Source of the DNA: Sulfitobacter sp. M05
GTDB taxonomy: Bacteria; Pseudomonadota; Alphaproteobacteria; Rhodobacterales; Rhodobacteraceae
DNA: 64,000 bases
Reading direction: 5' to 3'
Assembly: GCF_029285175.1 (NCBI RefSeq)
Contig: NZ_JABEDH010000001.1
Span: forward strand, 1-64,000
Below, one piece after another: positions 36,691-43,588 of this stretch. Every line of letters begins with the position of its first letter. The stretch's first letter is position 1. Below the pieces are notes generated by a model. That model made no database searches. It was not told the DNA's origin and worked only from the letters and a program-made list of their open reading frames with translations. Made by a program: the position numbers and the translations under genes.

Positions 36691-36721
36691 TGTGATCACA
36701 GTAGAAAAACGTGTGATCACA
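36691..36721. promoter_or_regulatory. paired TGTGATCACA operators upstream of the suc operon
   Basis: Perfect 10-bp palindromes at 36691-36700 and 36712-36721, centres 21 bp apart (two helical turns), each with an outward AAATG extension. They lie 112-142 bp upstream of sucC. The same pair at the same spacing precedes sdhC. TGTGA and TCACA abut here, so this is not a CRP site; a GntR- or MarR-type dimer pair is possible. Confidence 0.75.
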
Positions 36722-36902
36722 AATGCGGGAAAATTAATTTCGGGTAAACGATCTGGCTGTATTTAGAAGGCCAATTTCCACCCCCTAACGGGTATTTCGC
36801 GGAATAGCTGTGTGGGCCGACAGGCGAAACCGTGCCTGATTTGCGAAACACAAAGCTGTCCTAGGCGAGGCGGCGGGGCAGGTGCAATTCCCCGTCAGGG
36901 CA

Positions 36903-36922
36903 TCGGGGCGCTGTGGCCCCGA
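36903..36922. terminator. GC-rich hairpin after the mesaconyl-CoA hydratase gene
   Basis: TCGGGGC and GCCCCGA form a 7-bp stem with loop GCTGTG, 17 bp after the hydratase stop on the minus strand. No T-tract follows, so termination is only possible. Confidence 0.35.
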
Positions 36923-36938
36923 CAACCGGTTCGTATCG

Positions 36939-37970
36939 TCACAGAGGCATGAGCGCCCAATAGTCGAGGTCAAGCAGGACCTCGGGCAGATATTTACCAT
37001 CCTCGCCACGTAGGGCAAAGGCATCGCCGCCCTTGGTCGCGACCAGCCGCAGACGGATGGCACCAACACCCGGCGCATCTGTTTCGGCCTTGTCCAGCAC
37101 TTCTGACCATGCCCGGATTGTGTCACCGGCCAAACAGGGGTTGGCATGTGCGCCGCCATTCAGCCCGGCAATCATCTGTGCATTTGCCAGTCCGTTGAAG
37201 GACAGGGCGCGGGCCATGGAAATCACGTGGCCACCATAGATCAGCCGTGTGCCGTCAGGGCGGGCAGAGGTGTCAAAATGCACCTTGGCAGTGTTTTGCC
37301 ACAGGCGGGTGGCCATCATATGTTCGGCTTCTTCGACAGTGACCCCATCGACGTGGTCGATTTTCTCGCCGATCTCGTAATCTCCCCAGCGGTGAGGTTC
37401 TCCGGCAAGGGTGAAGTCATAGTTTGTGAAATCGAGGCCTTCGGGAATGACCAGTTGACCGGCATCCAATGCCTTTGGCAGATCGGGCACAACCGTCTCA
37501 GGGGCCGGCGCGTCCACATCGCGTTTGCGCACCATCACCCAGCGGACATATTCCATTACCGCTTCGTCGTTCTGGTTCAAACCGGTGGTGCGGACATAAA
37601 CAACGCCAGTCTTGCCGTTTGAATTTTGTTTCAATCCGATCACTTCGGACTGGCTGCGCAGGGTGTCGCCGGGCCAGACAGGGGCCAGCCAACGGCCCTG
37701 AGCATAGCCGAGGTTGGCCACGGCGTTCAGCGACACATCAGGGACGGTTTTGCCAAACACGATATGGAAGGCAATCAGATCATCCATCGGGCTGAACGGC
37801 AGGCCGCAGGATTGCGCAAACTGATCCGAGGAATAAAGCGCATGTCGCGCCGGATAGAGCATGTGGTAAAGTGCCCGCTCGCCCATTTTTACGGTGCGGG
37901 GCACTGCATGATGCAGGGTCTGCCCGACTCTGTAATCTTCAAAGAAACGACCCGAGTTTGTCTTGGCCAT
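36939..37970 (-). CDS. mch: mesaconyl-CoA hydratase (MaoC-type, ethylmalonyl-CoA pathway)
   Basis: 343 residues from ATG 37970. Two hot-dog (MaoC-like) halves are visible: GRFFEDYRVGQTLHHAVPRTV in the first and GDYEIGEKIDHVDGVTVEEAEH in the second, with YGGHVISMARALSFNGL. It hydrates mesaconyl-C1-CoA to beta-methylmalyl-CoA in the ethylmalonyl-CoA route for acetate assimilation. Upstream frame to 38129 overlaps the DUF1737 gene and is ignored. Neighbouring mcl2 and the ccr/ecm genes elsewhere in the window support the role. Confidence 0.9.
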   Translation of the reverse strand: MAKTNSGRFFEDYRVGQTLHHAVPRTVKMGERALYHMLYPARHALYSSDQFAQSCGLPFSPMDDLIAFHIVFGKTVPDVSLNAVANLGYAQGRWLAPVWPGDTLRSQSEVIGLKQNSNGKTGVVYVRTTGLNQNDEAVMEYVRWVMVRKRDVDAPAPETVVPDLPKALDAGQLVIPEGLDFTNYDFTLAGEPHRWGDYEIGEKIDHVDGVTVEEAEHMMATRLWQNTAKVHFDTSARPDGTRLIYGGHVISMARALSFNGLANAQMIAGLNGGAHANPCLAGDTIRAWSEVLDKAETDAPGVGAIRLRLVATKGGDAFALRGEDGKYLPEVLLDLDYWALMPL

Positions 37971-38173
37971 TAGTGGGCTCCTAATTTTGTATCGGGCGAA
38001 TAGGTGCCCTCGACTTCTTTCACGACCGACTGTCCGCAGCGCATCACGCCTGCTTTGTGGTCCCATGTCTGGGTCGGGGAACCGTACAGCTCCCAGCCCT
38101 TGTTCAATGCATCCGTGACCTTGTGGCAAAAGGCGGATGTGTCTTCTTCCGACAGAAAGCGGTAAAGTTTCAT
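37970..38173 (-). CDS. DUF1737 domain protein
   Basis: 67 residues from ATG 38173 with GAGGAGA upstream. MKLYRFLSEEDTSAFCHKVTDALNKGWELYGSPTQTWD matches the small DUF1737 domain; GWELYGSP is the conserved core. Its stop abuts the hydratase start. Role unknown. Confidence 0.85.
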   Translation of the reverse strand: MKLYRFLSEEDTSAFCHKVTDALNKGWELYGSPTQTWDHKAGVMRCGQSVVKEVEGTYSPDTKLGAH

Positions 38174-38183
38174 GGCTGTCTCC

Positions 38184-38741
38184 TCAGGACGGAAACGGCG
38201 AAACGCCGAGCCAAAAGTGGATCGCCGCAACGAGGACAAACATCACCAGGCTGATGACTGTAAGGCGTATATAGGTAGCACGTCCGGCTGGGGCGGGGGC
38301 GGTCCATTCCGGTTCGGCGCGGTTGATCAGGATCACGCTGCCCACGGCCCAGGCCAGCAATCCGCCGAACAGGATGATCGAGGCAAGATCGCCATTCACC
38401 AGCAAATGCGCAGTGGCCCAGATTTTCACCGCCAACAACTGTGGATGGCGGGTTTTATAGGCCGGCCACGCCTTGGCCCCCTTGGCGGCGGATGATCCGT
38501 AAACCCAGAAGGCCAGCAGCATCGCCAGATTGTTCACATGGGTCAGGAAAAGCGGTGGGTGCCAGACGGGGATGAAATCCGCCATCCGGTAACCGATGAC
38601 CATCAGCGCCAAAGCAGCAATGATCAGCAGGGCGATAATGCCCTTGCCCGGTGTGCCCAATGCAGACCGGGCGTCAGGCTTAAGCCGTTTGAACCAATGT
38701 GCGCCGACCCATAGGATCAGGCCGATGATCAACAATAACAT
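38184..38741 (-). CDS. NnrU family membrane protein
   Basis: 185 residues with five to six hydrophobic helices. H14 and the block THVNNLAMLLAFWVYG then RHPQLLAVKIWATAHLLVNGD carry the histidines conserved in NnrU, a protein linked to nitric-oxide reduction in denitrifiers; most relatives have no proven role. No nitrogen-oxide genes are nearby. It sits 4 bp after the malyl-CoA thioesterase gene in the same direction. Confidence 0.88.
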   Translation of the reverse strand: MLLLIIGLILWVGAHWFKRLKPDARSALGTPGKGIIALLIIAALALMVIGYRMADFIPVWHPPLFLTHVNNLAMLLAFWVYGSSAAKGAKAWPAYKTRHPQLLAVKIWATAHLLVNGDLASIILFGGLLAWAVGSVILINRAEPEWTAPAPAGRATYIRLTVISLVMFVLVAAIHFWLGVSPFPS

Positions 38742-38745
38742 AGTT

Positions 38746-42209: not shown

Positions 42210-42255
42210 GTGCATTTATGCACGTCAAAGGCTACCGGTTTTGGTAGCCTTTGAC
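42210..42255. terminator. double hairpin after the PRC-barrel gene
   Basis: A short palindrome GTGCATTTATGCAC (42210-42223) adjoins a perfect 13-bp stem GTCAAAGGCTACC / GGTAGCCTTTGAC with loop GGTTTT (42224-42255). No T-tract follows, but position suggests transcription end or mRNA protection before mdh. Confidence 0.6.
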
Positions 42256-42379
42256 ACGTCTGGGCGGGGCTAATCCGCCAAGTTCCCTGCATTGCATCAT
42301 GGTAGGAAAACCACGCAACTTGCAGGCTGCCGCGCATTTCGTTATCTCGACGACAAATTAACCCTCACGGAGACTTATC

Positions 42380-43342
42380 ATGGCCAGAGCCAAAATCGCG
42401 TTAATCGGCGCCGGGCAAATCGGTGGCACGCTTGCGCATCTCGCAGCTCTCAAGGAACTTGGCGACGTTGTAATGTTCGACATCGCTGATGGTGTGCCGC
42501 AGGGCAAAGCCCTCGACATCGCCGAATCGGGCCCATCCGCCAAGTTCGACGCCAATATGTCCGGCACGCAGGATTACGCTGATATCGCCGGTGCTGACGT
42601 CTGTATCGTGACTGCTGGTGTCGCCCGTAAACCGGGGATGAGCCGCGACGATCTTTTGGGCATCAACCTGAAGGTTATGAAATCAGTGGGCGAGGGCATC
42701 GCCGCACATGCGCCAAACGCGTTTGTGATTTGCATCACCAACCCGCTGGACGCGATGGTTTGGGCGCTGCGCGAATTCTCCGGCCTGCCACATGAAAAGG
42801 TCTGCGGCATGGCGGGCGTTCTTGACTCCGCACGCTTCCGCCACTTCCTTGCGGATGAATTCAAAGTGTCCATGAAAGACGTCACCGCGTTTGTTCTGGG
42901 TGGCCACGGCGACACGATGGTGCCGCTGGTGCGTTATTCAACTGTTGCCGGTATCCCGCTGCCGGATCTGGTGAAAATGGGCTGGACCTCACAAGAGAAA
43001 CTGGACGCGATTGTTCAGCGCACCCGTGACGGCGGTGCCGAAATTGTTGGTCTGCTCAAGACCGGCTCTGCCTTCTATGCGCCTGCAACATCCGCAATTG
43101 AAATGGCGGAAAGCTATTTGAAAGACCAAAAGCGCGTTCTGCCATGTGCGGCCTATGTAAATGGCTCCTATGGTCTGGACGGGTTCTATGTTGGCGTCCC
43201 CACAGTGATCGGTGCCGGCGGTGTTGAGCGTGTTGTCGAAATCCAGATGAACAAGGACGAGCAGTCCATGTTCGACAATTCCGTAAACGCGGTCAAAGGT
43301 CTGGTTGATGCGTGTAAAGGTATCGACGACAGCCTGAGCTAA
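42380..43342 (+). CDS. mdh: malate dehydrogenase
   Basis: 320 residues of the LDH-like NAD-dependent MDH type. Rossmann motif GAGQIGG at 10-16, D34 for NAD specificity, substrate arginines in [13 protein letters not shown] (R83, R89) and catalytic H176 in [13 protein letters not shown]. It oxidises malate to oxaloacetate in the TCA cycle. ATG 42380 follows CACGGAG. A classical terminator ends the gene, so it is separate from the sdh operon. Confidence 0.97.
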
Positions 43343-43368
43343 GCCGCCAAAATGTTTGCAAGATTGAA

Positions 43369-43394
43369 ACGCGCCCCTTTAGGGCGCGTTTTTT
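43369..43394 (+). terminator. rho-independent terminator of mdh
   Basis: ACGCGCCC and GGGCGCGT arms with loop CTTTA and a run of six T residues, 27 bp after the mdh stop. Confidence 0.92.
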
Positions 43395-43453
43395 GTGGCC
43401 GATACAGTGGCGGATACAGAAGTGAAAGCACCTCTTGGCAGGGTGGGCGGTTT

Positions 43454-43463
43454 TGTGATCACT
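43454..43463. promoter_or_regulatory. single degenerate TGTGATCACT site
   Basis: One mismatch from the palindrome pair found 104 bp downstream. It may be an auxiliary binding site of the same regulator, or chance. Confidence 0.35.
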
Positions 43464-43557
43464 CTGCCGTGGCGATGTGGCAAAGCCTGTGCAAATCTGA
43501 CATCTGCTATCGGTCGGGGCCGCAAGAAGGTTGAGTCGGTAGAAATGTTACCGTGTT

Positions 43558-43588
43558 TGTGATCACAGTGGTTTCAGGTGTGATCACA
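43558..43588. promoter_or_regulatory. paired TGTGATCACA operators upstream of the sdh operon
   Basis: Perfect palindromes at 43558-43567 and 43579-43588, centres 21 bp apart, flanked by TTTG on the left and AAATGC on the right. A -10-like CATAAT lies at 43599-43604, so the second site covers the -35 region. The arrangement equals that before sucC. SdhC starts at 43758. Confidence 0.78.

Follow-up and report, generated by a model that had tools for sequence, protein, structure and literature searches.

Why two operons of the tricarboxylic acid (TCA) cycle, suc and sdh, should carry the same pair of perfect palindromes in front of their first genes is the question raised by a 64,000-nucleotide stretch of the Sulfitobacter sp. 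M05 genome (the window; contig NZ_JABEDH010000001.1, positions 1 to 64,000). Analysis of the window and of related genomes points strongly to the palindromes being operators of AkgR, a GntR-family regulator with an FCD domain (GntR/FCD), two dimers of which very probably bind on one face of the DNA and activate sucC and sdhC. The sequence TGTGATCACA occurs without mismatch at four positions (Table 1) and nowhere else in the window. Both pairs have an 11-bp spacer, which places the centres 21 bp apart, exactly as an earlier note on this DNA had read them. The near end of the suc pair lies 112 bp from the sucC start and that of the sdh pair 170 bp from the sdhC start. The AAATG-type outer extensions described in the same note are present on three of the four flanks: both sides of the suc pair conform (CATTT...AAATG), as does the right side of the sdh pair (AAATG), and the left side of the latter reads GTTT.

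In the 4.07-Mb genome the exact pair is found only 5′ of sucC and 5′ of sdhC. Relaxing the search to three mismatches adds a single place (C7:261501, three mismatches). Assuming uniform bases, about 0.1 pair matches per genome are expected at three mismatches and practically none at zero; chance recurrence is thus very unlikely, as had been argued before. The reversed pattern gives no match in this genome at up to three mismatches. This control is a lenient one because the reversed pattern contains CTAG, a word that is rare in many bacteria, and the case for the pairs does not rest on it.

Scanning named genomes for the exact pair yielded at least 118 stretches with at least 121 pairs, which were compared with 13 window proteins. 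Among the matches listed, 118 of 121 pairs lie 5′ of sucC or sdhC (95 just 5′ of sucC, 23 of sdhC), bearing out the proposal of a suc-sdh regulon; one is 5′ of sucA (L099) and two (L015, L071) are too close to the end of the stretch to be placed. The 80 printed titles of these stretches are mostly of Rhodobacteraceae or Rhodobacterales, the exceptions being L024, L027 and L083. The last bears the title Nocardioides marinus, probably in error: it contains the pair, and its SucC shares 90% identity with the window's. Under the title Robiginitomaculum, L027 has a stretch of SucC that matches at 97%. Within the order, the pair with an 11-bp spacer and up to three mismatches anywhere in the genome is present in 237 of 244 genomes, as against 2 of 244 for the reversed (and, again, lenient) control. 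These figures bear on the possibility that we are dealing with sites of the CRP/FNR type or with chance palindromes. TGTGA and TCACA are indeed CRP half sites; the layout of a CRP site, TGTGA-N6-TCACA, is however not found here, the two halves directly adjoining within each TGTGATCACA, which is the ground on which CRP had already been excluded. Abutting half sites and the placement before sucC or sdhC led us to reject both explanations, to which we attach next to no probability.

In three of the seven genomes missed (G002, G206, G198), the spacer is 10 bp at both operons, and a strict 21-bp rule was consequently rejected. The exact spacing emphasized in the earlier note thus holds for both window pairs and becomes 21 or 20 bp in relatives; for the 75 exact places listed in a search allowing spacers of 2 to 32 bp, the spacer is 11 bp in 68, 10 bp in six and 20 bp in one. 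For the other four genomes (G232, G141, G110, G227), no pair lies within 300 bp of either gene, sucC or sdhC. A firm pair was identified in 209 of the 244 genomes, 174 of them with an exact match (any spacer from 2 to 32) and 35 more with a pair in place (23 from the second sdhC set described below, G085, G023, G133 and G178, and eight from 11 extra genomes). When the sdhC upstream region was sampled in 100 genomes, the pair was found in all 100, giving the proposed regulon the conservation in relatives that the earlier note had looked to; in G058, G222 and G019 it appeared with a longer upstream stretch (0, 3 and 2 mismatches, respectively). Even among the 11 extra genomes, chosen as lacking an exact pair, eight have a pair at sdhC. 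The outer flanks (TTT/AAA) are conserved across 96 sucC loci, the inner flanks much less so, a pattern that would suit a two-fold symmetry centred on the spacer. Outside its own family the pair is nearly absent: 4 of 241 genomes of the class have it at up to two mismatches, three of that family plus G369.

A candidate regulator emerged from the single perfect TTGTGATCACAA in the genome (C7:207903), which ends 6 bp short of the ATG that opens a gene for a 216-amino-acid protein. The protein has a GntR domain (44.8 bits, curated cut-off 27) and an FCD domain (63.9 bits, curated cut-off 24.3). Among solved structures, McbR (YncC) of E. coli is closest to it in sequence (PDB 4p9f, E = 1.3e-20); McbR has other targets. 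The palindrome (up to one mismatch) is found upstream of the orthologue in 40 of 59 genomes, taken one per genus; 319 control palindromes in the same 59 upstream regions average 0.17, with a maximum of 5. All told, 69 of the 89 genomes examined have it before akgR, and 29 of the 30 closest loci, our genome included, have it within two mismatches of the 12-mer (L181 does not). Not counting the site at akgR and the four halves of the pairs, this genome contains 11 one-mismatch 12-mers, compared to one for the reversed control. Among the ten for which open reading frames were listed, seven fall within longer frames and two 3′ of frames; one 12-mer (L136) lies 44 bp before a 342-codon frame. Some may be real sites. 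FCD domains usually have a metal-binding Asp and a last His. In AkgR the Asn of a conserved NLEFH stands at the place of this Asp and R-x-D-V occurs close to the last-His position; the ligand site may be unusual.

RSP_0981 of Rhodobacter sphaeroides is said to be AkgR, an identification attributed to Imam et al. 2015. The earlier note professed not to know the regulator, which can now be named as AkgR; both motif and predicted regulon are already in print for R. sphaeroides. GTGATCAC is given as the AkgR motif, and AkgR is termed a transcriptional activator, in PMC6365646, and the GntR regulator RSP_0981 is predicted to control sucCD, sdh and sucAB in PMC4344238. The family and the GTGATCAC in the sites are thus alike in the two organisms, and the window sites before sucC and sdhC agree with the predicted targets. 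The guess of a GntR/MarR-type protein in the earlier note was right as to GntR, a GntR/FCD gene having the same site; nothing points to MarR, for which no search was run. RSP_0981 is close to RSP_0974-6 and, in keeping with this, the orthologue in G094 is separated from sdhB by a single 152-codon open reading frame. Unlike this arrangement, akgR here is on a contig other than that of suc-sdh, and the sole paired sites precede sucC and sdhC. Regulator and suc-sdh regulon were thus known before, and what the window shows is a member of this regulon in a further genome. No paired operators spaced 20/21 bp apart and in helical phase with the promoter are described in the passages of PMC6365646 and PMC4344238 consulted, and a literature search on TGTGATCACA and these sites, judged by its listings, gave no further report besides those on AkgR. 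PMC6365646 also describes a GntR regulator of the Pseudomonas simiae deoxyribonate cluster, PS417_07240, which is reported as 32% identical to AkgR and has a conserved palindrome GTGATCAC spanning positions -47 to -40 relative to the start codon; unlike here, one palindrome is described and the pathway is different.

Regulator and pair occur together. At E ≤ 1e-20 an AkgR protein is found in 242 of the 244 genomes of the order, and a close orthologue (E ≤ 4e-78) in 239, all 239 of which have a pair match (236 with spacer 11 at up to three mismatches, plus G002, G206 and G198 with spacer 10). The five genomes without a close orthologue are G023 and G232, which have none, and G141, G110 and G227, with relatives at 31%, 47% and 45%; pairs occur only in G023. 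In the class at large, an AkgR protein (E ≤ 1e-40) is present in 4 of 241 genomes, all four of its own family. Conceivably, the pairs are the target of some other regulator, be it a paralogue of akgR (about 38% identity) or an unrelated protein, and akgR accompanies them through common descent. Several relatives (G206, G184, G002, G011; L223-L226) do have a further GntR homologue with 36-38% identity to AkgR, and the pairs of G023 would be accounted for. Such a regulator would, however, have to explain why the same palindrome precedes akgR itself in most genomes examined, why the pair is gone in G232, G141, G110 and G227, where AkgR has diverged or disappeared, and why the GTGATCAC motif is attributed to AkgR in PMC6365646. 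We regard it as very improbable.

The way in which AkgR might act was suggested by the sdhC promoter. In relatives, the sdhC upstream regions contain a conserved GTGAC followed, about 17 bp on, by a TA-containing box. Distances were counted from the centre of the proximal palindrome to GTGAC. Of the 48 distinct loci that made up a first set, 41 have GTGAC, under the rule applied, at 51-52 (4 loci), 62-64 (27), 70 (1), 73-74 (5) or 83-84 (4) bp; the distances group into classes at about 52, 63, 73 and 84 bp, whole helical turns apart. In a second set of 97 loci, five of which share the same 60 bp with the first, GTGAC was scored in 83 under the first-set kind of rule, by which taking the first of two GTGAC words gave 18 and 27 in two loci. 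Counting all words at 30-100 bp, GTGAC is present in 90 of the 97 loci; of its 92 occurrences, 90 deviate from 62.8 + 10.5k by no more than 2.2 bp (expected fraction, about 0.42-0.48). Outside the main class (61-65), 24 of 25 occurrences are in phase. The picture is the same without the five shared loci (85 of 92 loci), and 11 further loci gave 51, 51, 51, 52, 53, 54, 62, 62, 62, 64 and 73. The vector length for a 10.5-bp period is 0.86 for pair to GTGAC, compared with 0.10 for pair to ATG (118-208) and 0.11 for GTGAC to ATG (55-135); neither of these distances shows a 10.5-bp period in the same loci. A jitter test (0/5000) is weak, since a single tight cluster would pass it, and the phasing case is carried by the count outside the main class and by the ATG-distance controls. 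On a rough tree (277-300 bp of sdhC, 90 labelled loci) the classes change about 15 times, a count that will be too high as the tree is short; shuffled labels require 22 changes on average and 19 at minimum. Whole-turn shifts are therefore not one inherited event. Within the main class, the proximal site of 10-bp-spacer pairs is about 1 bp further from the promoter (nine loci, mean 63.8 vs 62.6), and the distance of the distal site is therefore nearly constant.

The whole-turn distance between the pair and the sdhC promoter is apparently new, and it fits activation from the same DNA face. For a regulator that has to face the promoter, the simplest role would be that of an activator in contact with RNA polymerase from the upstream side. 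Two AkgR dimers would occupy the two palindromes, two helical turns apart on the same face and presumably cooperatively. From this position upstream of the core promoter they would switch on sucC and sdhC in a class I-like geometry, presumably by touching the C-terminal domain of the RNA polymerase alpha subunit. We are inclined, with due reserve, to see the pair as a rigid two-dimer platform from which the DNA to the sdhC promoter varies in length only by whole turns, a face-of-the-helix rule for a GntR-family activator in Rhodobacterales. At E. coli CRP class I promoters, too, activator sites function at whole-turn distances from the promoter; sdhC differs in the protein family, in having paired palindromes, and in that the variation is natural and between species. 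Between pair and promoter, words of the A-tract type (AAAAA, CAAAA and others) likewise recur with a 10.5-bp period relative to the palindrome (L334-L433). This period may reflect intrinsic curvature, or merely the shared ancestry of the stretch; phased A-tracts may bend the DNA and in this way carry a distant platform up to the polymerase.

GntR/FCD proteins are for the most part repressors, and the same GntR protein could instead bind and repress sucC and sdhC, being released by a TCA metabolite. The single symmetric site at the start of akgR is typical of repression, and AkgR would control its own gene, probably by repression because the site covers the translation start region. At sdhC, on the other hand, the pair lies some 51-85 bp upstream of the -35 element in helical phase, and occlusion needs no phase. 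Added to this is the term activator in PMC6365646. Repression of the two operons appears unlikely to us.

Several observations weigh against activation by paired AkgR dimers. G023 has pairs at sdhC and sucC (L273, L274) without a close orthologue, all 21 candidates having been scored; this may reflect a gap in its 80-contig draft or a replaced regulator. The genomes are related and represent lineages rather than independent trials, and the four pairless ones amount to about three lineages. The pair in 31 of 244 genomes rests on a 3-mismatch match alone and four have none; in G133, G060, G179 and G203 the sdhC stretch examined has no pair. The palindrome is missing (up to one mismatch) from 19 of the 59 akgR upstream regions and likewise from L268 (G094) and L271 (G062). 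In the commonest sdhC geometry the proximal site would lie about 97 bp upstream of the predicted start, far for class I. A phased core promoter was sought at sucC and none was resolved, so that the phase rule is seen at sdhC alone. Finally, orthology of the protein to R. sphaeroides AkgR is presumed, supported indirectly by the place of the gene near sdhB in G094.

The features discussed are collected in Table 1. Genes in the window were named from their sequences and from synteny, and none was put through a family search. The minus strand carries lpd, sucB, sucA, sucD and sucC; the plus strand, mdh and sdhC-D-A-B. Between sdhA and sdhB, a 266-codon open reading frame (47015-47815) resembles, by eye, an FkbM-type methyltransferase. 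Counterparts of the near-palindrome upstream of the sdh pair were seen 5′ of the sdhC pair in G002 (106 bp upstream) and G206 (113 bp upstream); an extra site also lies 124-205 bp upstream of the pair in three others of 24 sdhC loci, and 21-41 bp upstream of it in 4 of 96 sucC loci.

Table 1. Positions of operators, promoter elements and genes (window coordinates unless a contig is given).
Feature	Position	Strand	Remark
sucC-proximal palindrome TGTGATCACA	36691..36700
sucC-distal palindrome TGTGATCACA	36712..36721
sdhC-distal palindrome TGTGATCACA	43558..43567
sdhC-proximal palindrome TGTGATCACA	43579..43588
Possible third, weaker site, near-palindrome TGTGATCACT	43454..43463		104 bp upstream of sdh pair
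Putative sdhC -35 element CGTGAC	43667..43672	+	GTGAC conserved in relatives
Putative sdhC -10 element TATGAC, 17-bp spacer	43690..43695	+	by eye from sequences
akgR (GntR/FCD)	G000:C7:207249-207896	-	outside window, on a contig other than suc-sdh
sucB	28548..30071	-	named from sequence
sucA (2-oxoglutarate dehydrogenase E1)	30068..33049	-	named from sequence
sucD (true start may be internal)	33607..34539	-	sequence and synteny
sucC, first gene of suc operon (target)	35386..36579	-	homologue downstream of pair in relatives
sdhC, first gene of sdh operon (target)	43758..44141	+	synteny
sdhD	44154..44525	+
sdhA	44567..46372	+
sdhB	47897..48676	+

These results attach the name of a likely regulator to a strongly conserved element in front of two TCA operons in Rhodobacterales, and the site pair can be used for annotating AkgR regulons. 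The whole-turn distance classes at sdhC, in turn, provide a clear and cheap test of how a GntR/FCD protein activates transcription.

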